64,000 nucleotides of DNA from Providencia manganoxydans (GTDB lineage: Bacteria > Pseudomonadota > Gammaproteobacteria > Enterobacterales > Enterobacteriaceae): positions 2,666,001-2,730,000 of the forward strand of contig NZ_CP067099.1 in assembly GCF_016618195.1 (NCBI RefSeq), written 5' to 3'. Below the pieces are notes generated by a model. That model was not told the DNA's origin. It did not search any database and worked only from the letters and a program-made list of their open reading frames with translations. The translations under genes were made by a program, and so were the position numbers. Each line of letters begins with the position of its first letter. The stretch's first letter is position 1. Below, piece after piece: positions 28,962 to 63,720 of this stretch.

Positions 28962-29342
28962 TCACTGCTGAGCAAGCCAGTTATGGCATAACATGCCTAA
29001 AAAAGTAAAAATTAGTGCCCCGATAACATGAATAGCAATCGTGCTCAGTGCCACCAGTAATTTTCCTTCTTGTATTTGCACTAAGACTTCCAATGAAAAC
29101 GTTGAAAATGTAGTAAACGCGCCACAAAAACCGGTCACAATAAACAGTTTATAGGCAGGACTGAGATTGGCATTGGCAAAATAAGAAATCGCAAAGCCAA
29201 TGATAAATCCCCCGACAAGATTGACAAATACAGTTCCCATTGGAATATTTGGATAGAGATGATTGAGTTTTAGACTGATAAACCATCTTAACCAACCACC
29301 TAAAACAGAACCTAGCGCGATAGAAAAAAGAGCTGCATACAT
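28962..29342 (-). CDS. crcB: Fluoride ion channel CrcB/FluC
   Basis: 126-residue inner-membrane protein with four hydrophobic segments, forming a dual-topology dimeric fluoride exporter. Signature GxxxRW near the start (GSVLGGWLRWFIS), NLVGGFIIGF, and the GFCGAFTTFSTFSLE stretch that forms the ion path are present. The frame is open to 29396, but ATG 29342 has AGGGG eight bases upstream and fits the family length. A fluoride riboswitch lies about 110 bp upstream in the leader. Confidence 0.95.
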   Translation of the reverse strand: MYAALFSIALGSVLGGWLRWFISLKLNHLYPNIPMGTVFVNLVGGFIIGFAISYFANANLSPAYKLFIVTGFCGAFTTFSTFSLEVLVQIQEGKLLVALSTIAIHVIGALIFTFLGMLCHNWLAQQ

Positions 29343-29425
29343 AGCGGGATCCCCTAGTGTTATCATGGGGAAATAAATGCGCGGATATATTAACATTTAT
29401 GCCCCAATAATTAGGGCACATAATA

Positions 29426-29514
29426 CCTACGTACCCCATCAATTGAAAAGGTTAACGTAGGCATCATCAACCCATTAAGGGCGGTTTTTCACGGGAGGAA
29501 TGCCATCTCCTGCA
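29426..29514 (-). promoter_or_regulatory. Fluoride riboswitch (crcB motif) with expression-platform stem
   Basis: On the minus strand, GGAGATGGCATTCCTCC (from 29510), then AACCGCC and GGGTTGATGATGCCTAC, match the crcB-motif consensus including the terminal GATGATGCCTAC. The aptamer covers about 29456-29514. Its last bases CCTACG (29461-29456) can pair with CGTAGG (29431-29426), a likely switching stem. There is no T-run, so control of translation or Rho access is more likely than intrinsic termination. Fluoride binding should raise crcB expression. Confidence 0.9.
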
Positions 29515-29581
29515 ATTAGATTACAGCTAATTAATTACAAGGTAAATAGTGGATTATTGTATAATTTATTCACTCGTTGAA

Positions 29582-43920: not shown

Positions 43921-45084
43921 TCACCATGCCTGTTGGTATAATTCCAATGCATTTTGCTCTGTCAACTCCCGAGGATTATTCACTAATAAGCGAGTTTGAG
44001 CCATTGCCGCCTGAGCCAATGATGATAAATCGCTGTGTAAGATCCCGACTTCACGTAAGCGTTGAGGCACTTGGCATTCAGCAATAATTTGCGCCATTTT
44101 GTTGATAAAGGCGTCACTATCTTGCTGCACATTGTGTTTTACTGAAGCACCCACATACGTCGCCAATTCCGCATATAACATCTGCGCACTAGGTAAATTA
44201 AAATGAAGCACTGGCAGCAACATTAATGCATTTGATAATCCATGAGAAATATGATGCTGCGCGCCGAGTGGATAGGCTAACGCATGAACCGCCGCAACAG
44301 GTGAATTAGCAAAAGCGATACCGGCAAGTGTCGCACCTAATAAGTTCGCTTCTCTGGCCGCTCGGTTATTACCATCATTACAAGCAGCCACTAAATTTTG
44401 GCTAAGTAACACCAGCGCTTCTTTGGCAAGTAAATCAGAAAATAGGTTTTTCTTATGTTTACTGGTATAAGCTTCAATTGCATGCACCATAGCATCAATC
44501 CCTGATGCAGCCGTATGTATTGCGGGTAACTTAAGGGTTAATTGCGCATCCAACACCACCACATCACAGAATAATTTTGCATCGACTATGCCCATTTTAT
44601 TATCATCAGAGGTAGTGAGGATTGCTATATTAGTGACTTCTGATCCTGTCCCCGCAGTCGTGGGGATTTGGATCAATGGTAATCGTTGTCCCTTAACCTT
44701 ATTGATGCCATACATTTGTGAAAGCGGTTGTTGTGATTGCGCCATAATTGCTACCAGCTTTGCAACATCAAGACTTGATCCCCCGCCTAATCCAATGATT
44801 ATTTCTGCGCCAACATTCGTGGCCATTTCAGCGGCATCAATCACTTGCTGCTCTAACGGATCAGGCTGAACAGCCGAATATAGCGAAACGCTATATCCCG
44901 CACGCTCTAAATTAAGCATGACATCAGAGACAATACCCGCTTGCACAAGCCCCTGATCTGAAATAATCATCACTTGTCTTGGAGAGCCGAAGGTTTCTAT
45001 AATTTGCGCTAATCGCTGTGCGGCCCCCCATTCAAAAATAAGCTTTGGTACACAGGCAAATTCAAATTTGTCTAAGTTTATCAT
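43921..45084 (-). CDS. Iron-containing (group III) alcohol dehydrogenase
   Basis: 387-residue Fe-ADH of the GldA/EutG/FucO superfamily. NAD-binding GGGSSLDVAKLVA and TTAGTGSEVT are visible; metal ligands Asp and three His lie in AASGIDAMVHAIEAY and AVHALAYPLGAQHHISHGLSNALMLLPVL. It interconverts an alcohol and aldehyde with NAD(P). As last gene of the glycerol-phosphate-type operon (4-bp ATGA overlap with the gene before), it may oxidise an alcohol released by the pathway; substrate unknown. Confidence 0.9.
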   Translation of the reverse strand: MINLDKFEFACVPKLIFEWGAAQRLAQIIETFGSPRQVMIISDQGLVQAGIVSDVMLNLERAGYSVSLYSAVQPDPLEQQVIDAAEMATNVGAEIIIGLGGGSSLDVAKLVAIMAQSQQPLSQMYGINKVKGQRLPLIQIPTTAGTGSEVTNIAILTTSDDNKMGIVDAKLFCDVVVLDAQLTLKLPAIHTAASGIDAMVHAIEAYTSKHKKNLFSDLLAKEALVLLSQNLVAACNDGNNRAAREANLLGATLAGIAFANSPVAAVHALAYPLGAQHHISHGLSNALMLLPVLHFNLPSAQMLYAELATYVGASVKHNVQQDSDAFINKMAQIIAECQVPQRLREVGILHSDLSSLAQAAMAQTRLLVNNPRELTEQNALELYQQAW

Positions 45085-45413
45085 TGACGTACTCCTTGAT
45101 TGAGCGAATTATTTCCTTGTGTCACAAAAATACTTTCCACCTGTTTGCTGTCCAGAAGTGGCGTGATGATGCTCCCCCCAATACGCTGGAAATGTTCCGT
45201 TTGACGGTGTGCTTCCAAACCATTCGCCGTTTGATATTGTTCTAGAATAACAAAGTGATCGCTATTTTCTGTGGAACGAAAGAACTGATACGATAAATTA
45301 TCAGGCTCTGTCCGTGTTGCTGCGGCCAGCTCTATCAAGGCTTGATTAACATGCTCCCCCATTCCTTGTTTGGCATAGTAATAAGCGATAACTTGAAGAT
45401 AACCATTATTCAT
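45081..45413 (-). CDS. Antibiotic biosynthesis monooxygenase (ABM/YgiN-like) domain protein
   Basis: 110 residues from ATG 45413, which overlaps the preceding stop by ATGA. A dimeric alpha/beta ferredoxin-like fold of the ABM family is indicated by YLQVIAYYYAKQGMGEHVNQALIELAAATRTEPDNLSYQFFRSTENSDHFVILEQYQTANGLEAHRQTEHFQRI. Members include quinol monooxygenase YgiN and AI-2 degradation protein LsrG, an aldehyde/ketone phosphate isomerase. The latter precedent, in a phosphorylated-substrate operon, makes a cofactor-free isomerase role attractive, but this is inference. Confidence 0.82.
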   Translation of the reverse strand: MNNGYLQVIAYYYAKQGMGEHVNQALIELAAATRTEPDNLSYQFFRSTENSDHFVILEQYQTANGLEAHRQTEHFQRIGGSIITPLLDSKQVESIFVTQGNNSLNQGVRQ

Positions 45414-46000
45414 TTTATTTTTCCTTCTGGTGATAGGGCCATTCCCCACAGTTGACAATCACTACTTGAAACTGCAATAGCGCCATTGGCTAATGCATAT
45501 GTGACATCATTTGCATGGCTCACAAATCCAGAAGCCACAATAGGAGGTAATTTCATTTTATCGGCTTGAGATAATAGAGGCAGCATAGGGGCTGGCATCA
45601 GTTGGACATAGTCAGGAGCACTTTGTTCGATCGCATTTAAACTACGTAACCACGTGGAGCGGTCAGTCACAAAGATTTTTTGCATCGTCAGTAACTCAAG
45701 ACGATTCGCGCGTTGGATCGTTTGTAAGCGAGTTGACAATATGCCAGTAGCGCCGCTTTCAGCAATATATTCGATACCACTTTTATCTTGCTGAATGCCA
45801 TTACAACTATCAATATTCACAATGACAAATTTATCTGCTTGCGTGAGTAAATTAATCACAGGTTGAATTTTTAACAGATCGATATTGGCGATAATGCACA
45901 CTTTTGCTTCGCTTTCGATGGCGACTTTTAATTGCTCCACACCATAGATAGCCATAATGACAGGATGGCGCGCTAACAGCGCGCCAAAGTTATGAACCAT
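45410..46000 (-). CDS. GlpP-type glycerol-3-phosphate-responsive antiterminator
   Basis: 196 residues matching the GlpP family along its length: HPVIMAIYGVEQLKVAIESEAKVCIIANIDLLKI, KFVIVNIDSCNGIQQDKSGIEYIAESGATGILSTR, APDYVQLMPAPMLPLL and IVASGFVSHANDVTYALANGAIAVSSSD. In Bacillus, GlpP with glycerol-3-phosphate stops termination in glp mRNA leaders. GlpP is common in Firmicutes and unusual in enterobacteria. A leader terminator precedes the operon at 52277-52324, its obvious target. Confidence 0.88.
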   Translation of the reverse strand: MVHNFGALLARHPVIMAIYGVEQLKVAIESEAKVCIIANIDLLKIQPVINLLTQADKFVIVNIDSCNGIQQDKSGIEYIAESGATGILSTRLQTIQRANRLELLTMQKIFVTDRSTWLRSLNAIEQSAPDYVQLMPAPMLPLLSQADKMKLPPIVASGFVSHANDVTYALANGAIAVSSSDCQLWGMALSPEGKIK

Positions 46001-46011
46001 AATTCACCTAC

Positions 46012-47556
46012 CTAATCATTAGGAAGCTCAGTACTAAATCCGAGCTTACCTGGGTTGAGTATTTGTTTAGGGTCAAGCGCCGCTTTCAAACTTTGCATAA
46101 TAGGAAAAGCCGATGACAGTGATCTCTCCATATAAGGCGATCTTAGTAGCCCGACCCCATGGTGATGGCTGAGTGTTGCTTTGTGTTTAATGATCACTTG
46201 GTTTGCCGCATCCCATGCTGCGCGGTACCATGCAGCTCGTTGTGTTACCTCAACATCGCCGCGCAAAGAGAAATATAAACAAGCGCCATCAACATAAGCA
46301 TGAGATTGGTGCGCAGAGCCTGCTAGTGTTCCTGGGACTGCATTAATCGCCGCCACAACCTCATCATAAATAGTACTGAGATCACGCCAACAACCAATCA
46401 TTTCTAGTGTATCAGCAACCAGTCCCGGTGTTCGTTTAAAACCCTCTGCGCTTTTTCCTGTTAAATAACGCGTATCTAACCAACGCTCAAAAATAAATGC
46501 ATGATCGAGAGGCTGCCCTATTTGCTGGCATACCCGCTCAGCGATGGTCAAAAAGGCATCAACCACTTCTTTTGCACCTTCATCGGCAATTAACAACACG
46601 TTGGTATTAGGTAGATCAAATTGCACACCGCTTTCGAGATTATCATAAAGACGCAGAACCGCTGGCGTTGTGCCCTGTTGCATGATTTGTCGACATGCTT
46701 CTAGCCCCTCGGCAAAACTGTCAAACCCCCATGCAATCGCACGACCATAATCAGGCAAACGGTGTAGCTTAAAACGAATACGTACAATGATGCCTAATGT
46801 TCCTTCTGAACCAATAAATAATTGCTGTAAATCAGGTCCTGTCGCCGCACGCGAATAGCCCCCTACCGTAATTAATTGACCATCAGCGAGCACGATATCC
46901 ATACCGTAAACCATATCTTCAATTTTGCCGTAACGTGTAGAAAGTTGCCCTGCACCTCGGCATGCCACCCAACCACCTACCGTGCTAATACCAAATGATG
47001 AAGGCCAATGCCCCATCGTCATTCCGTATTCTTTTTGAATGATCTCTTCAAAAACATCACCAAACATGCCCGCTTCAACATCAACAATTTGGCTCGTTTT
47101 ATCAAAACTCACGAGTTTATTCAGTTCACAGACATCTAGCACAATCCCACCACGTAGAGGCAACGCTGCGCCAGTCACATTACTACGCCCAGCGGAAACT
47201 GTGACGGGTAAGCTTTTTTCGTGAGCAATACGCATCACCGCTTGAACTTGTTCAACGGTGGAGACACAGACGATCACCGCCATCGGAGTTGCAGGCTGGC
47301 CTTCTGTCTCGCTGATCATCGTTCGCGCCCACCAGTCACGAGTGAAATTAATGACGTCTTGCTCTGACGTCATCACTCGATCGGCGATCTGCTTGAGTTG
47401 CTTAATGGTTTCTTTATTCACATGCACTGGCGCTGTTTGTAATCCTTGATTACCGTTACTTGAAGACACTGACGTTGCCCAACTTGGTGGCGTGTGAGCG
47501 CCAACAACATAGTTACCTCGGTTATAGCCGCGCTTAATCGCATCTTTACTGATCAT
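46012..47556 (-). CDS. FAD-binding oxidase resembling alkyldihydroxyacetonephosphate synthase (AGPS)
   Basis: 514-residue vanillyl-alcohol-oxidase-superfamily flavoprotein. FAD-binding motifs are PVTVSAGRSNVTGAALPLRGG (about 108-128) and SFGISTVGGWVACRGAGQLSTRYGKIEDMV; the GPDLQQLFIGSEGTLGII block follows, and the C-terminus has the LSHHHGVGLLR signature with His464-466 and the final DPKQILNPGKLG. The HHHGVG motif is that of AGPS, which exchanges acyl and alkyl groups on DHAP; lactate-oxidase relatives differ there. Exact reaction unknown. It overlaps the GlpD-like gene by 4 bp. Confidence 0.85.
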   Translation of the reverse strand: MISKDAIKRGYNRGNYVVGAHTPPSWATSVSSSNGNQGLQTAPVHVNKETIKQLKQIADRVMTSEQDVINFTRDWWARTMISETEGQPATPMAVIVCVSTVEQVQAVMRIAHEKSLPVTVSAGRSNVTGAALPLRGGIVLDVCELNKLVSFDKTSQIVDVEAGMFGDVFEEIIQKEYGMTMGHWPSSFGISTVGGWVACRGAGQLSTRYGKIEDMVYGMDIVLADGQLITVGGYSRAATGPDLQQLFIGSEGTLGIIVRIRFKLHRLPDYGRAIAWGFDSFAEGLEACRQIMQQGTTPAVLRLYDNLESGVQFDLPNTNVLLIADEGAKEVVDAFLTIAERVCQQIGQPLDHAFIFERWLDTRYLTGKSAEGFKRTPGLVADTLEMIGCWRDLSTIYDEVVAAINAVPGTLAGSAHQSHAYVDGACLYFSLRGDVEVTQRAAWYRAAWDAANQVIIKHKATLSHHHGVGLLRSPYMERSLSSAFPIMQSLKAALDPKQILNPGKLGFSTELPND

Positions 47557-49232
47557 ATTGCTTCTCCTATAAGTATCGATTTTTCACGTTTAATCGCTGC
47601 CTGATAGTCGTCTACTTGTGTCTTAATCTCTTCGGCAGTAAAACTCAGTTCTTGTTGAAGTAATTCACCAACTCGTTGAGCTGCTTGCGCAGAGGCATCT
47701 CGTGCCATCAAACGTGCACGGATCCGTCTTGCCAAAACATCATCAACCGTACTGGCTAGCTCATGACGAATGGCATAAAGTACCTCTGCCTCGCTATAAG
47801 GCAGTCCTTCAACAATGGGTTTTGCAAGTGTTGGATCCTGCTGCAAAATATCACTAACAAAATGTGCTTCGGTGCCATAGCGTTCGCCTAGATGTGCAGC
47901 CATTCCACCAGATGCCATCACCGCTTGTGGATCATAACCAGCCGCACCTAGTAGATAAGCGGATTTGGTCGTACAGCGTTTTTTCTTACCCAATAGTTTG
48001 CTAGCAGCATCAATGGTTTGTTCTGCCATATGGCGTGAAGTCGTCAACTTGCCACCAACAACGGTAATCAAGCCATCTTCTGCAACTGTAATTTGGTGGT
48101 TACGTTTCATCTCAATAGTTTTTCCGCCTTTTCCCCCCACTAACGGGCGGCAACCTGCGATACTGCCAACCACATCATCAACAGTTAAATTGGTTTTCAA
48201 CGCGGTATTGGCACCTTCAATTAAGAAATCTAATTCCTTACGTGTACAATGCACATCATCTAGATTTCCTTCATAGTCTTCATCTGTCGTGCCTAAGTAA
48301 GAAACATTTCCCCAGCGTGTAATCGTTGCACGACGATTGCGCCCCGGAACAGGGATAGTCACAGTACAATCATTGCGTATTTTCAACCATGGGATTGCAA
48401 TATGAACCCCTTTTGCTGGGCGCACATGCAAAGCACTTTCCGTGCCTTTTTTCTCGCCTTTCCAATCACGCAACCATACACCTGTCGCCATGATCACCAC
48501 TTTCGCTGAAACATGAATTTCACGGTTATTTACCTGAACTATCGCACCATTAACCTTCCCGTTCGCGTCTCTTAGTATTTGTTGCGCTTTGGTATGATTG
48601 ATAACAGTGACTCCGTGATGTGCAGCGGTTCTCGCTAATGCAAGTGTCAATCTGGCGTCATCGACACGTGCATCAAAATACATAAATCCACCGGAAAGCT
48701 GTTCTTCATTCAGTGTTGGGCAATGTGATAGCACCTCAGCAGGTGTCAATTTTTGATGTAAAATACCTTCACGCCATCCCCCTGCCAGATCGTATGTCCA
48801 TAATAAGCTTTCGAAGGCTTTGGCTAATCTTTTATCAAATACCCCGTTTTTATCTAAGATTGGGAACATAAACGGTAAACGTTGTACTAGGTGCCTTGCA
48901 TTACGGCGTAAACGTTGTCGCTCTAGTAAAGAATGAAACACCAGTTTTAAATTCCCTTGTTCGATATAACGCAGCCCTCCATGTACCATTTTGGAGGATT
49001 TAGATGATGTCCCCGACGCAAAATCATCTTTTTCGACTAAAGCAACTTTATATCCCCTCAAACTGGCATCTAATGCGGAATAAGCACCAGTCACTCCACC
49101 GCCGATAATCAAGATGTCATATTTTTCATGTTGTAACCGATCAAGTTGTTCTTCTCGATTGAGTCTTAATGGCGCTGTTGTAAACAAATCACTGTGTGAT
49201 TTACTTGGTTTACGAGATGGAAAAAAATTCAT
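47553..49232 (-). CDS. GlpD-like FAD-dependent glycerol-3-phosphate dehydrogenase
   Basis: 559 residues from ATG 49232 (a TTG 21 bp earlier is also open). N-terminal dinucleotide fold YDILIIGGGVTGAYSALDASLRGYKVALVEKDDFASGTSSKSSKMVHGGLRY is the GlpD signature; later RPAKGVHIAIP, YLGTTDEDYEG and TVVGGKLTTSRHMAEQ, and a C-terminal helical domain. It resembles longer actinobacterial-type GlpD rather than E. coli GlpD. It should oxidise a C2-hydroxyl of glycerol-3-phosphate or a derivative to a DHAP-type ketone. Start overlaps the kinase end region. Confidence 0.88.
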   Translation of the reverse strand: MNFFPSRKPSKSHSDLFTTAPLRLNREEQLDRLQHEKYDILIIGGGVTGAYSALDASLRGYKVALVEKDDFASGTSSKSSKMVHGGLRYIEQGNLKLVFHSLLERQRLRRNARHLVQRLPFMFPILDKNGVFDKRLAKAFESLLWTYDLAGGWREGILHQKLTPAEVLSHCPTLNEEQLSGGFMYFDARVDDARLTLALARTAAHHGVTVINHTKAQQILRDANGKVNGAIVQVNNREIHVSAKVVIMATGVWLRDWKGEKKGTESALHVRPAKGVHIAIPWLKIRNDCTVTIPVPGRNRRATITRWGNVSYLGTTDEDYEGNLDDVHCTRKELDFLIEGANTALKTNLTVDDVVGSIAGCRPLVGGKGGKTIEMKRNHQITVAEDGLITVVGGKLTTSRHMAEQTIDAASKLLGKKKRCTTKSAYLLGAAGYDPQAVMASGGMAAHLGERYGTEAHFVSDILQQDPTLAKPIVEGLPYSEAEVLYAIRHELASTVDDVLARRIRARLMARDASAQAAQRVGELLQQELSFTAEEIKTQVDDYQAAIKREKSILIGEAI

Positions 49233-49246
49233 GAGTAAATAGACTC

Positions 49247-50773
49247 CTAACAAGCAATGGCTTTTATTGCGGTATAATCAATTTCAAGTTGAAGGCGTGA
49301 ATTCCACAATAGAAGACGTTGATTACGCTCGGCTTCGCTTATTGATGGAATAAACCGTTTCGCTACCGTTAATGTTTCACAGGCACTTTCGAGAGAGTCC
49401 CAAAGCAATCCATTAGAACCCGCTAAAAATGCGGCTCCTCTTAGACTCGCTCTCGCTGTTTCAGACATGCGTAATACAGGTATACCGCTGATATCTGCCT
49501 GAATTTGCAATAAAGCATCACTGTTTGACATCCCACCCCCGACTACCAATTGTTGTGCGGTTAACCCTGTTGCAGATTGATTCGCACGTAAGCAACCTGC
49601 GACTGAATTCGCAATGCCTTCTAAAATGGCGTAGGCGATCTGTGGACGTGTAGTTGAAATTGATATGCCGTTTAAAGAGGCACGTGCTTGAGGTTGTAAA
49701 CTCGGCACTCGTAGCCCAGTTAAAGCAGGTATAAAGCTAACACCACCTGCATCTTGCGCTTGCATTGCCAGTTCACTTATTTGCTCAGGTGAATCAAACC
49801 AATGTAATTTCTCACACACCCAATTCAGCGCAGAACCTGTTGTCGGAACAAAGGTTTCTACTGAATAATGAGATTGTGATTGCTGACGACGAGCCACCAT
49901 CGCAAGCGTGCTTTCCAATTGATGATCGAATGAAGGAACACTCTCACTAACAATTTGGTCGATAAAACTGCCAGTACCATGCATACAAATAGATTGCCCA
50001 TGTTGAATGCAACCTAATCCAACAGCACCCGCAAATTGATCCCCCATGCAAGCCAAAATCGGTACCGAAATACCAAGTAGGTCTTGCTTTGTGGTTCCTA
50101 GGTCATCTAAATCATCTTTAAGTTCGGGCAGTAATGATAGAGGAAATGATAATGCCTCTAACCAAGGAGTGTAGTAACGATGCTCACGCAAGCTATAAGC
50201 GCCCGCTGACGTTGCGTTTGTGGGCGTTGTAACACAGTGGCCTTCTTGTGATAAATTCCAAAGCAACCAGCTATCTATGGTGCCAAATTTGAGTCGATTG
50301 GCCTTAAAAGCCTCTGCAACGACTGGGGTTTCTTGAATATGTTTTGCAGCCCATAAATAAGGTGAGCGGATCCCTACAGGACGGCCTGTATGTTGTAGTA
50401 GGCGGCTGTCCCACTCATCAGCTAGAGTATGTAAAATATCGGCATAGCGTGCATCTTGCCAAACCATAGCGGGGACTAATGATTTGCCTGTTTTACTGTC
50501 CCATAGCACTGAGGTCGAACGCTGAGTTGCAATACTTAAGGCAACAATATGCAAATTATCTTGTTGTGCCTGAGCAATTGTTTTACGGCAAACCTCTAAT
50601 GTTGCCTTTAATATGTCATCTGCATTTTGCTCTGTAACACCATGCTGTAAACTTTCAACACGTAAAGGATGATATTCTAAAAAACGCACTAATCCATCTG
50701 CACTGACAACTGCTGAACGAGTACCTGATGTACCTTCATCAATCGCTAGAATGACATTTTGACCGTGTTTCAT
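49247..50773 (-). CDS. FGGY-family carbohydrate kinase, glycerol-kinase-like
   Basis: 508 residues, two actin-like domains: ILAIDEGTSGTRSAVVSADG at the N-terminus, SIATQRSTSVLWDSKTGKSLVPAMVWQDAR, FGTIDSWLLWNLS, ACMGDQFAGAVG, HGTGSFID and LVVGGGMSNSDALLQIQADISGIPVLR. The overall pattern is GlpK-like, but the active-site loop NQRET of GlpK is replaced by TQRST and the sequence is clearly diverged, so a modified glycerol or polyol is a plausible substrate. It overlaps the MFS gene by 4 bp. Confidence 0.88.
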   Translation of the reverse strand: MKHGQNVILAIDEGTSGTRSAVVSADGLVRFLEYHPLRVESLQHGVTEQNADDILKATLEVCRKTIAQAQQDNLHIVALSIATQRSTSVLWDSKTGKSLVPAMVWQDARYADILHTLADEWDSRLLQHTGRPVGIRSPYLWAAKHIQETPVVAEAFKANRLKFGTIDSWLLWNLSQEGHCVTTPTNATSAGAYSLREHRYYTPWLEALSFPLSLLPELKDDLDDLGTTKQDLLGISVPILACMGDQFAGAVGLGCIQHGQSICMHGTGSFIDQIVSESVPSFDHQLESTLAMVARRQQSQSHYSVETFVPTTGSALNWVCEKLHWFDSPEQISELAMQAQDAGGVSFIPALTGLRVPSLQPQARASLNGISISTTRPQIAYAILEGIANSVAGCLRANQSATGLTAQQLVVGGGMSNSDALLQIQADISGIPVLRMSETARASLRGAAFLAGSNGLLWDSLESACETLTVAKRFIPSISEAERNQRLLLWNSRLQLEIDYTAIKAIAC

Positions 50774-52233
50774 TCTGTTCTCCTTAACGGATTGTCAATT
50801 ATCGTTTCTTTTTCAGCTTTAAATTGAGGAGCATTTGGCTCGTTGTCAGGCACGATGTGAGTGCGAGTAGGATCCCATTTAATTAGGAAGCAAATGATAC
50901 TGGCGACCAACGGTACCACTGACATAATCAGAAAGGTGGTTTGTAAACCATAAGACTCACGAAAAACAGGGAAGATGAATAAACCAAGCGCAGCCCCCAT
51001 CGCACCAAGAGCACCAATGATGCCGTTTGCACCAGCGCGCAATTCACTTCTGAATGAAAGTGATGATAGGCTTTTACCATTCGCACCGGGTCCACCTGAA
51101 TGACAAAGAATGAACAAGGCAGGAACCGTCAATGACAACCAAATTGGCATCACATCACTGTATAGCCCTAAAGAAAGTAATACTAAAAATGCAACTGCAA
51201 AACCGGTTGCTGATGCCATTCTCAAGCCAAGCCAACGGCCAATCAGCGGGGACATAAACCCACCAAGGATCCCAAACAGATTGAAAAATAGTGAACCTAA
51301 GGTTGCATAAACAAAATTCTTACCAAACATCGCTGCACTGATCACTGGCAAATACCAACCAATCCCAAAATATTGTATAGATTGACAAATTTGCACCGTT
51401 GCAGCCAAAATCGTTCTTGGTAAATAAACGCCTTTAAAAATAAGTAATAGATTCCGTACTCCCCCTTTTGCTTGACCAACAATGGGTTTCAATTCTTCTT
51501 TAGGGGCTAATGTAAAATAATCGCCATAGACTTTTGACATCGCCTTTGTTGCTTCAGCAAAGCGCGATTTTCTCGCCAGCCAAATGGGACTTTCAACGAG
51601 GTAAACAAATTGCAGAATAAAAATTGTAATACCACAAACCGCAGTCACCCCAATAGAATAACGCCAGATTGCATCACCCACATCCATTGAGAAGAATAAC
51701 AAGGCAAATATCAAATTCAGGCACACAGCAACATACCAAACCCCTTGCCATGTATTAAGGCGACTTTTTAGTTTCGCAGGCGTAAACTCCGCTAACATTG
51801 CCATTGCAACAGCAAAGTCCATTCCATAAGACACCCCAACAAAGAAGCGCCCTGCAATAATGGTGTGAAAATCAGTTGAGAACATCACTAATAATGCGCC
51901 GATAATAGCGACAATCTTAGCAATGATTAATGGTTTTACTCTTCCCCATCGGTCAGCAATCCAACCACCTACAGGGTTAAAAATAATAGCGACCCATGAC
52001 GAAAAAGACGTCAATAACGCAATCTGCGTTGCCGATAAATTTAAATCACGAGTCATTGGATTAAGCCCTGCGCTTAACGCTGAGTTAGAAAATGCATCAA
52101 GGAATAATCCTCCGAGCATTAACCACCAAATCAGCCCAGCACGGCCAGTAAGACGAGCCTGAGAATCGATGAACTGAATAATGTCATCGATACCTCTAAT
52201 AGTTACGGATTTTGATAGATTGCGAACAGTCAT
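50770..52233 (-). CDS. MFS transporter of the glycerol-phosphate-type operon
   Basis: 487 residues with twelve expected membrane helices. The motif GWIADRWGRVKPLIIAK after helix 2 is the MFS loop motif, and VESPIWLARKSRFAEATKAMSKVYGDYF lies in the central loop, as in sugar/aromatic-acid porters. ATG 52233 is preceded by AAGGGGG at ideal spacing. The frame opens 72 bp earlier, but that start lies inside the leader terminator. First gene of a seven-gene operon, it presumably imports the pathway substrate. Confidence 0.88.
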   Translation of the reverse strand: MTVRNLSKSVTIRGIDDIIQFIDSQARLTGRAGLIWWLMLGGLFLDAFSNSALSAGLNPMTRDLNLSATQIALLTSFSSWVAIIFNPVGGWIADRWGRVKPLIIAKIVAIIGALLVMFSTDFHTIIAGRFFVGVSYGMDFAVAMAMLAEFTPAKLKSRLNTWQGVWYVAVCLNLIFALLFFSMDVGDAIWRYSIGVTAVCGITIFILQFVYLVESPIWLARKSRFAEATKAMSKVYGDYFTLAPKEELKPIVGQAKGGVRNLLLIFKGVYLPRTILAATVQICQSIQYFGIGWYLPVISAAMFGKNFVYATLGSLFFNLFGILGGFMSPLIGRWLGLRMASATGFAVAFLVLLSLGLYSDVMPIWLSLTVPALFILCHSGGPGANGKSLSSLSFRSELRAGANGIIGALGAMGAALGLFIFPVFRESYGLQTTFLIMSVVPLVASIICFLIKWDPTRTHIVPDNEPNAPQFKAEKETIIDNPLRRTE

Positions 52234-52276: not shown

Positions 52277-52324
52277 GAAAAAAGACAATAAGAGACCATA
52301 TTCATATCACAGATAGTCTCTTAT
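52277..52324 (-). terminator. Leader terminator of the GlpP-containing operon
   Basis: On the minus strand ATAAGAGAC (52324-52316) pairs with GTCTCTTAT (52296-52288) over a 19-base loop and is followed by TGTCTTTTTTC. It lies upstream of the first gene of the operon (start 52233), not at an operon end. The operon encodes a GlpP-type antiterminator, so this is the expected regulated terminator. The loop includes TATCTGTGATATGAATATG, available for protein binding or for an alternative fold. Confidence 0.8.
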
Positions 52325-52816
52325 CTAAAATCTGCTGCCTTCAATCTACTTGCATATAACAATAAATGTCAAAACATTGTTAACATAATTGATTGTAATT
52401 GTGACATGTAACGCAGTTGTTAACACAAGACAAATAAGATGATCCTTCTGCCTAAAATTAAATAATGTTGCAATATTCACTACGTTATTTTGAGCATTGT
52501 TACATTCTGTTAATCCATAAGTAATAACTTATAATCAATTCAAGATAAGTCATAGAAGTCAAAATAAAATATATGATAATATATTCAATTAAATTAATCA
52601 TAAACGTAAGACCTCAAATTATTAGTTATCGCTAACTTAATAGGTAACAGACTAAATCATCATCAAATTTAAAGTTTACATTGAGAGGAGGAAAATAAAT
52701 TACAATCTTAACATTAATATTAATGCCAGTCGTCATCATTATATCCGATAAGCCTTATTGATGGCTTATCGTACAACTTAATTTTATCAATCTCTTAATA
52801 TACTTCATATTTAATG
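52325..52816. other. AT-rich upstream region of the GlpP-containing operon
   Basis: No ORF or RNA recognised. It should hold the promoter of the leftward operon. TTGTTAAC/GTTAACA-like sequences recur near 52377-52428 (CATTGTTAACATAATTG and GTTGTTAACACAAG) and could be regulator sites. Confidence 0.45.
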
Positions 52817-58775: not shown

Positions 58776-59813
58776 ATGACAACCAAAACACAACTTCAAA
58801 ACTATCAAGATTACTTAGATGTTGGATTACGAGGCCAGTGGTATCCCGTTTTATCGAGCTGGGAAGTCACTAGCAACCCGATAGGCATCACCCGCCTCGA
58901 AGAACAAATTGTTTTATGGCGTGATGATAAAGGGCAAATTCATGCCTTAGAAGATCGCTGCCCACACCGTGGAGCGCGGTTATCTATGGGCTGGAATCTA
59001 GGTGAACGCATTGCTTGTTGGTATCACGGTGTTGAAGTTGGTGGTGATGGTATTGTCAAAGATGTTCCTGCGGTTAGTCAATGCCCGCTTGAAGGACAAA
59101 AATGCTTAAAAACCTACCCGGTTCAAGAATTGCATGGCGCCATTTTTCTCTACTTTGCCATTGAAGATGAAGTACCGCCATCACTTGAGTTTCCAGAAGA
59201 GTTAGCTGATAGCGAAAATCATAGCAATTTCTTATGTACTGCGACATGGCATTGCAACTATCAATATGCACTTGAAAATGTCATGGATCCAATGCATGGC
59301 ACCTATTTGCATTCATCTTCTCACTCCATGGCGGATGGGGATAAACAATCAGAAATGATCTTACAGCCAACTGAAAATGGATTTATTTTCCGCAAAAATG
59401 ACCAAGTCGGCGTCAACTTTGACTGGGTAGAATTTGCTAGCACAGGCGCTAATTGGCTTCGTTTATCGATTCCTTATCAAAAGCGTTTTGGACCAGGTGG
59501 ACACTTCTGGATCATCGGTATGGTGGTTCCTGAAGATAGATTTAATACCCGAGTCTTCTTTTGGCGTATCCGTAAGGTCAAAGATTGGCAACGCGACCTG
59601 TGGCGCTTTATGTACCGCAATCGCTTAGAAGGCTTGCACTGGGATGTACTTGAGCAAGATCGCCTCATTTTAGAAAACATGGCACCAAATGCTCGTCAAC
59701 AAGAATTCCTTTATCAACATGATGTTGGTTTATCACGTCTACGCCGTATTATGCAGCGCGAGGCCAAAAAGCAATTTGACCAAATCTACAACAAGGAAGT
59801 CTCAAATGCATGA
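58776..59813 (+). CDS. Rieske aromatic ring-hydroxylating oxygenase, alpha subunit
   Basis: 345 residues. N-terminal Rieske domain: Cys62-x-His64 (RCPHRGARLSMG) and Cys81-x2-His84 (ACWYHG). The catalytic mononuclear iron site is D-x2-H-x4-H at Asp171, His174, His179 (NVMDPMHGTYLH). No beta subunit gene is present, so it belongs with the alpha-only oxygenases (phthalate/vanillate/carbazole types). It adds O2 to an aromatic ring or removes a methyl or other group; the substrate cannot be read. The stop overlaps the SDR start by 8 bp. Confidence 0.92.
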   Translation: MTTKTQLQNYQDYLDVGLRGQWYPVLSSWEVTSNPIGITRLEEQIVLWRDDKGQIHALEDRCPHRGARLSMGWNLGERIACWYHGVEVGGDGIVKDVPAVSQCPLEGQKCLKTYPVQELHGAIFLYFAIEDEVPPSLEFPEELADSENHSNFLCTATWHCNYQYALENVMDPMHGTYLHSSSHSMADGDKQSEMILQPTENGFIFRKNDQVGVNFDWVEFASTGANWLRLSIPYQKRFGPGGHFWIIGMVVPEDRFNTRVFFWRIRKVKDWQRDLWRFMYRNRLEGLHWDVLEQDRLILENMAPNARQQEFLYQHDVGLSRLRRIMQREAKKQFDQIYNKEVSNA

Positions 59814-60561
59814 TTTACTGGCGGGGAAACGTATTGTTATTACTGGTGCGGCAAGAGGCTTAGGGTTTAGTTTCGCCCAAACGATTGCCGAACAAGGCGC
59901 CCATGTTGTGTTGTGTGACATCCTAAAGGAGCGTTTACAGCAGAGCGTCATGCAACTACAACAAGCAGGTTTAACCGCCGAAGGTCATCACTTAGATATC
60001 GCCGATCCTGAGGCGATAGAACGTGTTTTTCAATTGATCGGACAGCAAGGGGCTATTGATGGCTTAGTGAATAATGCCGCACTTGCGACAGGGGTTGGTG
60101 GTAAGACATTAGACGAATATGACCTCGACCTTTGGGATCGCGTGATGACCGTTAATGTAAAAGGTACTTGGCTGGTTACTAAGGCGGCGCTGCCCTATTT
60201 ACGTCAAAGTCAGCAAGGCAAAATTGTCAATATTGCCTCGGATACCGCTCTTTGGGGCGCACCAAAACTGATGGCTTATGTCGCTAGCAAAGGAGCAATT
60301 ATTAGTATGACCCGTTCTATGGCGCGTGAGCTGGGCGCACAAAAGATCTGCGTCAATGCTATCGCTCCGGGTCTAACCAAAGTTGAAGCGACAGAATACG
60401 TTCCCGCAGAACGCCATCAACTCTATGAGAATGGACGAGCACTGCAAGGAGAGCAACAGCCTGAAGATGTCACAGGCACTGTTTTATATTTGCTTTCACC
60501 AATGGCTAATTTCGTGACGGGACAATTGATCCCAGTTAATGGCGGGTTTGTATTTAACTAA
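59806..60561 (+). CDS. Short-chain dehydrogenase/reductase (possible cis-diol dehydrogenase)
   Basis: 251 residues from ATG 59806. NAD(P)-binding TGAARGLG at 13-20, NNAALATG (Asn-Asn-Ala motif), catalytic Ser in NIASDTALWG and Tyr-x3-Lys in AYVASKGA are all present; the ending VNGGFVFN is typical. The frame is open further upstream inside the oxygenase gene, but ATG 59806 starts the fold and overlaps the oxygenase stop. In context it may rearomatise an oxygenase product. Confidence 0.9.
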   Translation: MHDLLAGKRIVITGAARGLGFSFAQTIAEQGAHVVLCDILKERLQQSVMQLQQAGLTAEGHHLDIADPEAIERVFQLIGQQGAIDGLVNNAALATGVGGKTLDEYDLDLWDRVMTVNVKGTWLVTKAALPYLRQSQQGKIVNIASDTALWGAPKLMAYVASKGAIISMTRSMARELGAQKICVNAIAPGLTKVEATEYVPAERHQLYENGRALQGEQQPEDVTGTVLYLLSPMANFVTGQLIPVNGGFVFN

Positions 60562-60591
60562 TCACACCGCTGATGCGGGGAGGTTAAGATT

Positions 60592-61368
60592 TTGAGTTCA
60601 ACATGCAAATATTTGATCCCCGGTTTAGAAAAAGGGTTACAACTTTTATTACTCCTTGCACAGCAACACCGCGAACTGACTTTCGCAGAAATTTTACGTT
60701 TAGTTGATATGCCAAAAGCTACAGCCTATCGCGCTATACAAACATTGGTTCATTTGGATTTTATCGAGCAGCACCCAAGAACCGGCGCCTTCTCCCTAGG
60801 TCGCAAAGTGCTTAGCCTAGGCTTAGGCTATATCGCCTCGCTCGATCTTACTCAATTAGGGCAACCTATCATCGAGCAATTACGCGATCGCAGTCAGTGC
60901 AATAGCCACCTTGTAATACGCGACGGCAGAGACATTATTTATATTGCCAGAGTCAGTGGAGCCGAATCAAAAATTAACCATGTTACCGTTGGAACACGTT
61001 TACTGGCACATCGGACATCCCTTGGACGTATGTTACTGAGTGGATTAAGTCGCGCCGAATTTGATGAATTGTATCCAGATGATGAACTTCCTGATGACGC
61101 CGGCAGTAAACAGGTTTTTTGGAATATGATCCAAGCAGACCGCTTACGCGGCTATGTCATCGGGGAATCATTCTATCGACGAGGAATTTCTTCTATTGTT
61201 TATCCTGTGTACAACCGAGACAGCGGTGTCGAAGCCGTCATTAGCATTATGATGCCAATGGATAGTATCCCAGCCCAAGAACGACAGCGATTACAAAATG
61301 AAGTTAGAAGTGCAGCGCAAAAACTTACCGAGTTTATTGGTGGCATGACATCCATGAAAGCGATATAG
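60592..61368 (+). CDS. IclR family transcriptional regulator
   Basis: 258 residues with N-terminal winged HTH (GLEKGLQLLLLLAQQHRELTFAEILRLVDMPKATAYRAIQTLVHLDFIEQHPRTGAFSLG) and the C-terminal IclR effector domain (GTRLLAHRTSLGRMLLSGL, GYVIGESFYRRGISSIVYPVY). The start is TTG at 60592 behind a strong GGGGAGG at 60577-60583. IclR proteins often control aromatic catabolism; being inside the cluster it likely controls it. Confidence 0.9.
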   Translation: MSSTCKYLIPGLEKGLQLLLLLAQQHRELTFAEILRLVDMPKATAYRAIQTLVHLDFIEQHPRTGAFSLGRKVLSLGLGYIASLDLTQLGQPIIEQLRDRSQCNSHLVIRDGRDIIYIARVSGAESKINHVTVGTRLLAHRTSLGRMLLSGLSRAEFDELYPDDELPDDAGSKQVFWNMIQADRLRGYVIGESFYRRGISSIVYPVYNRDSGVEAVISIMMPMDSIPAQERQRLQNEVRSAAQKLTEFIGGMTSMKAI

Positions 61369-61387
61369 CACGAATAATGCGCTGAAG

Positions 61388-61471
61388 AGTTCGAGGTGTC
61401 GCTAGCGACGAAATTAGCGTAACCGCCGAATCTAAACAAACAGCGCTGCAACTTAACGTTGCATGAGTTTA
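61388..61471. repeat. Diverged ERIC-like element
   Basis: GAGTTCGAGGTGTCGCTAGCGACG ... CAGCGCTGCAACTTAACGTTGCATGAGTTTA keeps the ERIC plan with eroded ends. It lies between the IclR and extradiol-type genes. Confidence 0.5.
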
Positions 61472-61574
61472 ACGAAATAACACCAAACATTAGGTTTATT
61501 GCCATAAACCAGCGGCCTTTGCTTGCCCAAAATCTAGCTCGGCAATAAACCAATATCATATAGAGGGTCAAATT

Positions 61575-62501
61575 ATGTCAGTCATTGGTATTGAAAAATT
61601 AGAGTTTGGGGTCGACGACATTGCGGCTTGCCAGCAATTTTTACAGGATTTTGGTTTACACAAATCCTCCAGTAACCCATCTCATTTCACCACATTATCG
61701 GGGGCTAGCATCACAGTTTCCGCTATTGACGACCCTCACCTACCCGCTGCATTTGAATCAGGCTCAACCTTGCGGCGTATCACTTGGGGCGTCAAAGATG
61801 CCTCAGAGCTAGAACAGATCATCAAACAAATCGCCGATTGTCCCCAATTCAAACGCACAGAGAATGGTGCTGAATGTCTGGATCCAAACGGTATGACAGT
61901 CGCGTTTACTATTACACAGCAACAGCCCGTTGATGTTGAAATTTCCCCTATTAATCAGTGGGGAGATATTCGCCGTATTGATGCACCGAGTCCTGTTTAC
62001 GATAAAGCGACCCCAATTAATATCGGTCACGTGGTGTTTTTCGTTGATGATTTACCAACAACAGAAGCTTTTTACTGTCAAAAACTCGGTTTTCAAGTTT
62101 CCGATCGTTATATCGATCGCGCTGTTTTCTTGCGCACTCAAATCAATGGCTGCCATCACAATCTCTTTTTACTCAAGCTGCCACACCGAGGACGCGGCCT
62201 CAATCATGTCGCCTTTACCGTTCGTGATATCCATGAAGTCATTGGTGGTGGTCTGGCAATGAACCGCCAGAACTGGAGTACATTTATCGGCCCAGGCCGC
62301 CACCCAATATCATCTGCTTACTTTTGGTATGTCAACAGCCCAACAGGTGGCGCCTTTGAATATTACACCAATGACGACTATTTAACTGAAAAGTGGCAAC
62401 CACGTGAACTCGAACACTCTCTAGTTTCTTTTACTGAATGGGCTATCGAGGGAGGTATCGACCACGAAACTCGCCGCCAAGTCAAAAAAGAGAAGGAGTG
62501 A
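61575..62501 (+). CDS. VOC family protein, extradiol (meta-cleavage) dioxygenase type
   Basis: 308 residues made of two VOC modules (about 5-115 and 148-300). The second holds the Fe(II)-ligand pattern: His152 (IGHVVFFVDD), His211 (LNHVAFTVRD) and Glu262 (GAFEYYTND), as in catechol 2,3-dioxygenase-type enzymes. It would open a catechol-like ring with O2. The first module lacks ligands. It starts about 200 bp after the IclR gene and ends 4 bp before the reductase gene. Confidence 0.85.
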   Translation: MSVIGIEKLEFGVDDIAACQQFLQDFGLHKSSSNPSHFTTLSGASITVSAIDDPHLPAAFESGSTLRRITWGVKDASELEQIIKQIADCPQFKRTENGAECLDPNGMTVAFTITQQQPVDVEISPINQWGDIRRIDAPSPVYDKATPINIGHVVFFVDDLPTTEAFYCQKLGFQVSDRYIDRAVFLRTQINGCHHNLFLLKLPHRGRGLNHVAFTVRDIHEVIGGGLAMNRQNWSTFIGPGRHPISSAYFWYVNSPTGGAFEYYTNDDYLTEKWQPRELEHSLVSFTEWAIEGGIDHETRRQVKKEKE

Positions 62502-62505
62502 TGTC

Positions 62506-63720
62506 ATGACACAGATAATCAATGGTGGAATTGTCATTATTGGCGGAGGCCAAGCTGGCGGCTGGGCAGCCAAAACCTTAAGAGATGAAGGTTACCAAGG
62601 CACTTTATCTGTGATCAGCGATGAAGCGCATGATTTCTATGAACGACCACCGTTATCCAAGGCCGCTCTTAAACAAGCCGATTTCTCGCTATCACGTTTA
62701 TTTAGTGAAGAAGACACTGCGGCATTGAACATCACATGGTATCGACCACTTAGAGCAACCGCGATTGATTCTCAGCACAAACAAGTTCTACTCAGTGATG
62801 GGCGTGCTATTTCATTTGATAAACTCTTAATTGCTACCGGTGGACGGGCTCGTTACCTCTCTTCAGATTGGCAATCACACCCTCGTGTTTTCACATTACG
62901 TTCATGGGATGATGCGCAACGTTTACGTGAAGCCATGCTTAAGGCAGACAATATTGCCATTATTGGTGGTGGTTGGATCGGCTTAGAAGTAGCAGCTTCT
63001 GCACGTCAAATGGGGCTTGACGTCACTGTATTTGAACGCCAAACACGTCTATGCCAACGTAGCGTTCCTGCTTCAGTTTCTGATGCTTTAATGCAGCGTC
63101 ACCAGCAAGCTGGCGTTAATATCATTACAGATTGTGGCGATATCTGCCTTGATGAAACCACTGACTCGTTATCAATAAGCTGTGATAAACAAGCCAGCCA
63201 ATGTTTTGATATTGCTGTTATGGGGATTGGGGTAGAACTCAATCTAGAATTAGCTTCTGAAGCAGGTCTTGAATTAGCCCATGGCATTGTGATTAACGGT
63301 CAAGGGCAAACCTCACACCCCGATATCTATGCAGCTGGTGATGTGGCTTGTCATCCTACATTATCACTGTGTTTACAATCTTGGGCGTATGCACAAAACC
63401 AAGCCATCTCAACAGCAAAAGCGATGCTTAATGCACACAGTGAGCCGTTTAGTGATCTCGCTTGGCTGTGGTCGGATCAATATCAAGACAATATCCAAAT
63501 ACTTGGCATACCTACGGCTGAAGCGACTCAACATATTCAACGTATCACCCCCAATTCTGAAATTTATTTCTCACTAAATCAAAACAATGAGTTGATCCAG
63601 ATGGTGTCATTCAATGATGCCAGAGCCATTAAATTGGGTAAGAGATGGATGCAAAACAACCGTAAGCTATCACCGACAGAGCTTGCAGATCCTAATTTTT
63701 CACTGATGTCGCTGAAATAA
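62506..63720 (+). CDS. FAD-dependent ferredoxin reductase of the oxygenase system
   Basis: 404 residues of the HcaD/ThcD/rubredoxin-reductase group: FAD-binding GGIVIIGGGQAGGWAAKTLRDEGYQG, second Rossmann fold IAIIGGGWIGLEVAASARQMGLDVTVFE for NAD(P)H, and TSHPDIYAAGDVACHP near the C-terminal FAD contact. It passes electrons from NAD(P)H to the Rieske ferredoxin encoded at 58000. The SD GAAGGAG lies in the end of the preceding gene. Confidence 0.92.
   Translation: MTQIINGGIVIIGGGQAGGWAAKTLRDEGYQGTLSVISDEAHDFYERPPLSKAALKQADFSLSRLFSEEDTAALNITWYRPLRATAIDSQHKQVLLSDGRAISFDKLLIATGGRARYLSSDWQSHPRVFTLRSWDDAQRLREAMLKADNIAIIGGGWIGLEVAASARQMGLDVTVFERQTRLCQRSVPASVSDALMQRHQQAGVNIITDCGDICLDETTDSLSISCDKQASQCFDIAVMGIGVELNLELASEAGLELAHGIVINGQGQTSHPDIYAAGDVACHPTLSLCLQSWAYAQNQAISTAKAMLNAHSEPFSDLAWLWSDQYQDNIQILGIPTAEATQHIQRITPNSEIYFSLNQNNELIQMVSFNDARAIKLGKRWMQNNRKLSPTELADPNFSLMSLK

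Follow-up and report, generated by a model that had tools for sequence, protein, structure and literature searches.

In a 64,000-nt window of Providencia manganoxydans (NZ_CP067099.1; all positions are counted within this window), seven uninterrupted minus-strand genes running from 52233 down to 43921 form an operon. We consider it probable, on balance, that this operon is a catabolic route for glycerol carrying a substituent R on one end hydroxyl, in which an AGPS-type cleavage would yield dihydroxyacetone phosphate (DHAP) and an alcohol. The original prediction of import, phosphorylation, oxidation at C2 and flavin-dependent release of the substituent is largely upheld as the best explanation by the statistics of genes partnered with AGPS-like proteins and by the binding pocket of the kinase, and a switch-like leader RNA adds further new support. 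Gene content, gene order, conservation, residue signatures and the leader element are all direct observations. The genes, in transcription order, are:

50770..52233, minus strand: major facilitator superfamily (MFS) importer, 487 aa, start ATG 52233 (Pfam, open reading frame (ORF))
49247..50773, minus strand: GlpK-like FGGY kinase, 508 aa, with Glu84 replaced by Ser and Tyr135 by Val (Pfam, NCBIfam, alignment)
47553..49253, minus strand: GlpD-like flavin adenine dinucleotide (FAD) dehydrogenase, 566 aa as a TTG ORF, probable start ATG 49232
46012..47556, minus strand: AGPS-like FAD enzyme, 514 aa, motif SHHHGVG; R302, Y428 and H464-H466 correspond to AGPS active-site residues
45410..46000, minus strand: GlpP-type (G3P_antiterm) antiterminator, 196 aa (PF04309, 4.1e-50)
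45081..45413, minus strand: ABM-fold protein, 110 aa, start ATG 45413 (Pfam)
43921..45084, minus strand: iron-containing alcohol dehydrogenase (Fe-ADH), 387 aa (Pfam, NCBIfam)

As predicted, the genes are tightly spaced, with gaps of -4, -7, -4, +11, -4 and -4 bases in transcription order. Pfam agrees with all seven predicted families, including the HHHGVG signature, present as SHHHGVG: MFS_1; FGGY_N/FGGY_C; DAO with DAO_C; FAD_binding_4 with FAD-oxidase_C; G3P_antiterm; ABM; and Fe-ADH. Among the NCBIfam models shown, no cut-off is reached by an operon protein. In the GlpD-like gene an in-frame ATG at 49232 lies behind AGGAG, and with this start the junction to the kinase gene would be +14, not -7. 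The predicted MFS start at 52233 also stood; it has a ribosome-binding site, and we prefer it to 52305, which the longer ORF reaches, because that ORF would span the leader terminator. Operon G+C is 0.440, compared to 0.385 in the remaining window.

A contig scan of other genomes with the AGPS-like protein as query, so that presence of this gene is given, yielded 78 loci, in which presence of each gene was judged by score threshold. This survey, which the original prediction had proposed, found the order MFS-kinase-GlpD-AGPS-GlpP complete in 64 of the 78 loci. Sixteen of these also carry ABM and Fe-ADH and hence all seven genes, 13 carry ABM with no Fe-ADH match, and 35 have the five-gene core alone (two of them, L075 and L095, with a weak ABM match). 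Partial sets occur in four loci, three at a contig end (L022, L049, L074) and one internal (L097), with its AGPS match split over two frames; the remaining ten (L085-L092, L096, L098) have a GlpD-AGPS(-kinase) arrangement at ~42-49% identity. Kinase and GlpD-like genes accompany the AGPS-like gene in 72 of the 78 loci, six of them cut or incomplete. Among the host genera are Citrobacter, Burkholderia, Paraburkholderia, Achromobacter, Cupriavidus, Bradyrhizobium, Aureimonas, Arthrobacter, Agromyces, Saccharopolyspora and Sporosarcina.

ABM and Fe-ADH are optional and lie outside the universal core; with 35 of 78 loci lacking a match to either at threshold, alcohol dehydrogenation is not supported as the essential step it had been predicted to be. 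In nine loci (L037, L046, L057, L061, L065, L066, L082, L093, L097) one further protein cluster occupies the Fe-ADH place on the same strand. The two members tested (L037, L057) are Zn-dependent alcohol dehydrogenases, which amounts to a replacement of Fe-ADH at its position by an unrelated dehydrogenase. We found no ortholog of the operon in any of 23 other genomes of the same genus, where the sole matches are paralogs lying in frames 830 to 1040 aa long (best E 7.3e-10 at 28% identity). Because orthologs are absent from these genomes, the operon was probably acquired horizontally.

Kinase pocket and AGPS-like flavoenzyme

The kinase scores 334.7 bits against an NCBIfam GlpK cut-off of 590.35. 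Its best models are GlpK and then XylB, and no EryA model is among its matches, in a model set that may contain none. In GlpK, Arg83, Glu84, Tyr135 and Asp245 hydrogen-bond glycerol and Phe270 packs on it (PMC3245297; here and below, such citations refer to the available excerpts of the article), and Plasmodium glycerol kinase makes similar contacts (PMC2680290). We aligned the window kinase with 78 partner kinases, having dropped six of 84 sources with no match above 300 residues. All 79 sequences keep Arg83, Trp103, Asp245 and Gln246, and 68 of them keep Phe270. By contrast, Glu84 is replaced in all 79 (Ala 64, Ser 7, Cys 6, Thr 2), and so is Tyr135, mostly by Val, Ala, Thr, Asn or Gly, although many of the 79 are close relatives and do not represent 79 independent events. 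The Tyr135 call depends on the alignment, an earlier pairwise one having placed another Tyr of the window kinase there. The window kinase itself keeps R83, D245 and F270 and carries Ser and Val at the two replaced positions, and the distant kinases L101, L102 and L107 also lack Glu84 and Tyr135. All seven pocket residues are kept in 30 of 30 ordinary GlpKs, taken as the 30 best GlpK-model matches from the window's order. Loss of two glycerol contacts with the catalytic Asp kept could, on this alignment, be what a glycerol substituted at its far end calls for.

The pocket makes plain glycerol use hard to reconcile with the operon. A second plain glycerol locus, in which glycerol enters through the MFS protein and is turned into DHAP by the kinase and GlpD, with the AGPS-like protein as an accessory, would explain why GlpK-like, GlpD-like and GlpP-type genes share one operon, and the Cupriavidus metallidurans copy has been termed a second glp locus with its MFS protein as a possible glycerol transporter (PMC7912956). 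We nevertheless regard this as very unlikely, given that two glycerol-binding residues are lost throughout the alignment, that the kinase falls so far below the GlpK cut-off (335 against 590 bits), that an ordinary GlpK is already present in the genome (G000:C1:4216738-4218222), and that kinase and GlpD-like genes so regularly accompany the AGPS-like gene in the 78 loci, the AGPS-like gene being there by design of the scan. The genome also holds an additional GlpK-like kinase at G000:C1:1303391-1304707, which at 409 bits is likewise below the GlpK cut-off.

The GlpD-like protein scores 285.9 bits against an NCBIfam GlpD cut-off of 360 (NF008899), and its R95 and Y96 (E. coli R54 and Y55 by our count) are invariant in the alignment. 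For the flavoenzyme, the closest solved structures by sequence are AGPS of Dictyostelium discoideum (2uuu, E 2.6e-50) and guinea pig (4bby, 9.7e-41), with lactate dehydrogenase as the next family at 8.6e-29; the NCBIfam GlcD model gives 157 bits against a cut-off of 567.9. With a predicted structure (mean predicted local distance difference test score 76.9) as query, AGPS chains take the first 21 places among the fold matches, at about 22-24% identity. In D. discoideum AGPS, R352, Y508 and R447 are important for catalysis, and the reaction is redox-neutral and proceeds through an adduct of flavin N5 and DHAP (PMC3509576). R302 of the window protein aligns with R352 and with guinea pig R419, and is conserved in 76 of 76 covered orthologs of the 78 loci; Y428 aligns with Y508 and guinea pig Y578 and is conserved in 77 of 77, as is the HHH triplet. 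By their titles, some of the guinea pig structure entries are of the mutants Arg419His and Tyr578Phe, changed at the positions that correspond to R302 and Y428 (our residue count). The E-H-G motif of FAD-oxidase_C is absent from the AGPS-like protein, in which SHHHGVG stands in place of (S/T)GEHG(I/V)G. Judged by these residues, the flavoenzyme is of the AGPS type, as had been predicted, and by sequence it is not the plain 2-hydroxyacid dehydrogenase that would have spoken against the prediction. We class it from its sequence as an AGPS relative with part of the active site kept, and withhold the name alkyl-DHAP synthase because the feature corresponding to R447 fails, as detailed below.

Partner genes of AGPS-like proteins

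Other AGPS-like genes stand beside varied kinases and dehydrogenases. A plasmid survey matched 40 records, of which 16 were fetched (13 annotated, 3 unannotated). GlpD and an FGGY kinase accompany the AGPS-like gene in Paracoccus jeotgali (L101), Microbacterium (L102) and Novosphingobium (L107); a xylulokinase, a glycerol-dehydrogenase-type Fe-ADH and a short-chain dehydrogenase/reductase (SDR) in Roseibium (L103), Shinella (L109) and P. contaminans (L111); a glycerol dehydrogenase, an FGGY kinase and GlpP in Enterococcus gilvus (L105); PdxA and a four-carbon-acid-sugar kinase in Methylobacterium (L108); GlpD and a lipid kinase in Streptomyces (L110) and Tsukamurella (L112); and a xylulokinase without an obvious dehydrogenase in Mesorhizobium (L113). 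The type of kinase goes largely with that of the dehydrogenase. The xylulokinase model is the best fit for each of the five kinases tested next to a glycerol dehydrogenase or SDR (L099, L103, L105, L106, L114), and GlpK is the best fit for four of six tested next to GlpD (the window, L101, L102, L107). The xylulokinase-type pattern fits a dehydrogenase acting first and then a ketose kinase, and the GlpK-type pattern fits a kinase first and then GlpD; each partner pair could yield a 1-substituted DHAP phosphate.

We scored partners within 7 kb in two samples of loci, both hand-picked from match lists and hence non-random, with motif classes set by aligned motif position and with a partner reference set that includes the plasmid and E. 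coli clusters that inspired the hypothesis. Sample 1 comprised 40 loci from a profile search of 397 Pseudomonadota genomes, and sample 2 comprised 40 loci from 246 further genomes of unlabelled taxonomy. In sample 1, all 15 loci with H-[HQ]-H-G (5 HHHG, 10 HQHG) have an FGGY kinase together with GlpD (13) or an SDR (2), compared to 0 of 20 loci with the G-E-H-G motif of the 2-hydroxyacid dehydrogenase type, one of which has an SDR alone. In sample 2, kinase and dehydrogenase accompany 15 of 21 H-H-H-G proteins, with a single partner in two more (L169, L176), and 0 of 8 G-E-H-G proteins. Pooled, 30 of 36 H-x-H-G AGPS-like proteins have both partners, against none of 28 2-hydroxyacid dehydrogenases.

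FGGY and xylulokinase-like kinases are common in pentose and tetritol routes, and we count this toward a different substrate, a larger polyol or sugar (at least C4, for example a tetritol), with the flavoenzyme performing isomerization or carbon-carbon chemistry on the keto-phosphate. The P. contaminans variant has uronate-type genes next to it, and the Novosphingobium variant adjoins a sugar phosphate isomerase/epimerase on the opposite strand, both in keeping with such a substrate. On the other side, the window kinase resembles GlpK and not the pentulose kinases, the conserved core has no isomerase, epimerase or aldolase, and known AGPS chemistry is C1-O substitution on DHAP. Erythritol kinase, moreover, derives from the RhaB lineage (PMC3245297). 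Taken together, a larger polyol strikes us as distinctly improbable.

Clusters of GlpD, an AGPS-like gene and a kinase of the diacylglycerol/YegS lipid type occur at L110, L112, L167, L168, L171, L173-L175 and L178, and R447 is kept in both lipid-kinase-associated AGPS-like proteins tested (L110, L112). These clusters are the lipid counterpart of the same pathway logic. Lipid kinases beside some AGPS-like genes, and membership of the AGPS family itself, could be taken to mean that the window operon is an anabolic ether-lipid cluster making alkyl-DHAP. This we hold to be extremely unlikely; among the seven genes there is no acyl-DHAP acyltransferase, fatty-alcohol maker or alkyl-DHAP reductase, and the importer, the GlpP-type regulator and the alcohol dehydrogenase point to catabolism. 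A separate THHHA(V/L)G subtype (L132-L136, L173, L174, L180, L183-L189, L195), which has partners at L173 and L174 only (2 of 16), may have a different role.

Leader RNA upstream of the importer

The operon is preceded by a conserved leader with the following elements:

52343..52372, minus strand: sigma-70-like promoter, TTGACA-18-TAGATT, 10 of 12 consensus matches
52285..52335, minus strand: leader RNA element, covariance-model match at 41.4 bits, E 1.1e-7, the sole copy found in the genome (E up to 0.1)
52310..52334, minus strand: hairpin P1, candidate antiterminator, CAGAT (52334-52330) pairing with ATCTG (52314-52310)
52278..52322, minus strand: hairpin P2 with T-run, putative terminator, AAGAGACTAT (52322-52313) pairing with ATGGTCTCTT (52299-52290); excludes P1

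Of 65 sequences with an MFS match, 54, among them the window, carry the conserved motif upstream of the MFS start. In 30 distinct leaders, P1 (CAGAT/ATCTG) and P2 (AAGAGACCATC/GATGGTCTCTT) share one strand and are mutually exclusive. Pairing is retained through base changes: counting pairs from 0, pair 4 of P1 is A-U in 17, G-C in 8 and G-U in 5 leaders; pair 1 of P2 is U-A in 20, C-G in 8 and U-G in 2; and pair 2 of P2 is A-U in 20, U-A in 7 and G-U or U-G in 3. Because most of this variation is the difference between two clades, it represents few independent pair changes, and the proteobacterial leaders alone show one compensatory pair. Pairing is more frequent than after re-dealing letters among sequences (500 deals each), at 0.833 observed against at most 0.795 re-dealt for P1 and 0.909 against at most 0.855 for P2, with the best-pairing register chosen per sequence, which favors the observed values. 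A strict terminator scan matched 16 of 62 leaders, compared to 0.03 per shuffled sequence. By itself, the window leader shows no unusual folding energy (z -1.17, equalled by 25 of 200 shuffles), so the case for the leader rests on conservation and pairing. Promoter sites of this kind are no more frequent than expected (25 found, 26.5 in shuffles) and are weak evidence alone; the call at 52343..52372 is supported by its position just upstream of the leader element.

A covariance model built from 13 proteobacterial leaders was searched over 36 sources not used to build it. Of these sources, 27 contain the leader region of the operon; the model matched 15 of the 27 at the leader position, the window among them, and left 12 unmatched; L029 and L030, missed by an earlier pattern, were matched, and the Arthrobacter leaders L061, L065 and L093 matched at E 0.017-0.11. 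The model found nothing in the E. coli ygc region, in two close relatives of it or in the Enterococcus GlpP loci. Of 40 other genomes, six gave weak matches (E 0.0013 to 0.06), five of them same-genus genomes without the operon and one a genome of the same order. Since weak matches also arise in genomes without the operon and true leaders are missed, they mean little. Covariation on the model's own alignment is mixed, its score being equalled in 3 of 500 shuffles and its both-side pair changes in 432 of 500. At gathering thresholds, no Rfam family matches the leader. In Bacillus, GlpP with glycerol 3-phosphate disrupts a terminator that closely follows the promoter (PMC9604022), which makes antitermination by the operon's own GlpP the natural reading. 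This comparison suggests that the conserved leader is probably a GlpP switch.

Directly upstream of the leader is a phage holin-like orphan ORF (PF05106, 52817-53167, minus strand), perhaps a trace of operon insertion. Elsewhere in the window, a fluoride riboswitch (Rfam RF01734, 51.7 bits; 29451-29519, minus strand) lies just upstream of an ORF at 28962-29396 (minus strand), and 58776-63720 (plus strand) encodes a Rieske oxygenase with VanA_C, an SDR, an IclR regulator and a ferredoxin-reductase-like protein, a set that resembles a cluster for an aromatic O-demethylase or dioxygenase.

Proposed route and related systems

Unlike these features, the reactions, the nature of R and the GlpP ligand in the following route are inferences. 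The MFS protein would import R-O-glycerol, and the GlpK-like kinase, having lost two glycerol-holding side chains, would phosphorylate its free end. The GlpD-like enzyme would then oxidize C2 to give a 1-R-DHAP phosphate. On the AGPS-like enzyme a flavin-N5/DHAP adduct would form, R-OH would leave and water would enter, releasing DHAP to glycolysis. Fe-ADH where present, or the Zn-dependent enzyme at the same place in other taxa, would oxidize R-OH. The ABM protein would have a side role; its nearest solved neighbors are PA3566, other ABM proteins and LsrG, too unspecific a set to assign a reaction. GlpP, probably with the kinase product bound, would open the leader terminator. The R linkage may be an O-ether, and a thioether or similar linkage would also be allowed; nothing in the data points to the short-chain alkyl substituent of the original prediction.

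Several results weigh against AGPS-type cleavage in a kinase-dehydrogenase route. D-lactate dehydrogenases follow close behind AGPS with similar scores in the fold search, so that fold alone does not decide between the two. R447 is not conserved: the window protein has Gly there, and Arg occurs in 3 of 19 AGPS-like rows (L107, L110, L112), or in 1 of 16 FGGY-partnered rows, in a gappy region where the alignment is uncertain. In the excerpts of a review, AGPS is described as a synthase only (PMC3509576). The H-Q-H-G clade kinases L122 and L130 (two of two tested) fit xylulokinase despite a GlpD partner and break the simple rule of matching kinase and dehydrogenase types. Neither partner is present at four sample 2 H-H-H-G loci (L177, L179, L181, L182), and the THHHA(V/L)G subtype has partners in 0 of 5 loci in sample 1 and 2 of 11 in sample 2. 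Finally, an SDR and an FGGY kinase are joined by annotated electron-transfer flavoproteins (ETF) in Ilyobacter (L106) and Enterococcus raffinosus (L114), and E. coli YgcR weakly resembles ETF-beta (E 4e-9; no match for YgcQ). Because ETF or ETF-like proteins adjoin the AGPS-like gene there, net oxidation is suggested in these three variants.

Such neighbors, together with the missing R447, would fit a redox role for the AGPS-like enzyme, in which it oxidizes C1 of the substituted DHAP phosphate, an oxidative dealkylation that would give a phospho-hydroxypyruvaldehyde and pass electrons to ETF, quinone or oxygen, and ABM and the alcohol dehydrogenase handle the aldehyde. LsrG acts on a phosphorylated dicarbonyl, and the ABM fold neighbors LsrG and PA0709, the latter with glyoxal modifications by entry titles, also lean this way. 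For the window we think this unlikely: none of the seven genes encodes an ETF or ferredoxin, residues of the redox-neutral AGPS are kept while the dehydrogenase E-H-G motif is absent, and the core-only loci have neither ABM nor Fe-ADH at the threshold used.

The cleavage route can be set against known systems. With alkyldihydroxyacetonephosphate synthase (AGPS/ADPS; 2uuu, 4bby) the window protein shares the fold, the FAD domain, the catalytic Arg and Tyr and the HHH motif; it differs in its low identity and at R447, and as a bacterial protein in an import-kinase-dehydrogenase operon it probably cleaves. Bacillus-type GlpF-GlpK-GlpD with GlpP likewise has a kinase followed by a C2 dehydrogenase, a GlpP-type antiterminator and a leader terminator (PMC9604022), whereas the window has an MFS protein in place of GlpF, a kinase and dehydrogenase below the GlpK and GlpD cut-offs, a kinase without Glu84 and Tyr135, and an added AGPS-like step. 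The E. coli ygc cluster (ygcN-ygcE, annotated as putative) resembles the operon in its AGPS-like YgcU (VHHHGIG), FGGY kinase YgcE, GlpP-like YgcP and transporters, and differs in having SDR-type YgcW for GlpD, the flavoproteins YgcQ/YgcR and YgcN/YgcO, a xylulokinase-like kinase and no leader element found. YgcU (L099; also L119 and L120 in genomes G349 and G024) carries the same AGPS catalytic residues. The function of the E. coli cluster may be related but redox-coupled. Alkylglycerol monooxygenase (AGMO) is an oxygenase that acts directly on alkylglycerol, with no phosphorylation or DHAP intermediate. It also breaks the alkylglycerol ether, and a 2021 review calls it the only known enzyme to do so (PMC7911779).

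In C. metallidurans, Rmet_5442-5446 are by name the same five core genes, listed as putative genes of a second glp locus that were not differentially expressed, with function untested there (PMC7912956); the AGPS-like gene is 72% identical to that of the window. The operon is thus not "undescribed" in the strict sense originally predicted. The available excerpts of that article are the sole mention we found, and no function assigned to the operon or to YgcU/YgcE was found, in a literature coverage without most subscription journals and preprints that leaves absence unproven.

More broadly, it is quite possible, although we stop short of calling it probable, that widely different bacteria share a modular route for destroying substituted glycerols in which varied kinase/dehydrogenase pairs converge on a 1-substituted DHAP phosphate, which an H-x-H-G AGPS-like enzyme would cleave to DHAP and an alcohol by flavin-N5 chemistry, with a GlpP-bound RNA switch in this clade and with a betaine-lipid head group (for example glyceryl-trimethylhomoserine) as a possible substrate beside BCCT, OpuC or polyamine-type transporters. 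Relatives have a BCCT transporter (L127), an OpuC-type transporter (L114) and a polyamine-type ATP-binding cassette transporter with a betaine-aldehyde-dehydrogenase-like aldehyde dehydrogenase (L101). These hint at charged head groups in those variants and are not transferable to the MFS clade. As substrate of the window operon, we rejected the betaine-lipid head group, since the importer is an MFS protein and nothing points to R; such head groups are usually at sn-3, and a simple fit to a GlpK-type kinase is lacking.

AGPS has been described as a maker of ether lipids, and if the proposed route is true, a large bacterial branch that breaks glycerol ethers would put the covalent flavin intermediate of AGPS to a new, catabolic use. 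It would also suggest a function for a gene set of many soil and enteric bacteria, for the relatives of E. coli ygcU and for a conserved leader RNA. Joint loss of Glu84 and Tyr135 would make such kinases easy to recognize, and many of them probably carry a glycerol kinase annotation at present. Known AGPS chemistry would thus operate in a setting that is apparently degradative, modular and widespread.

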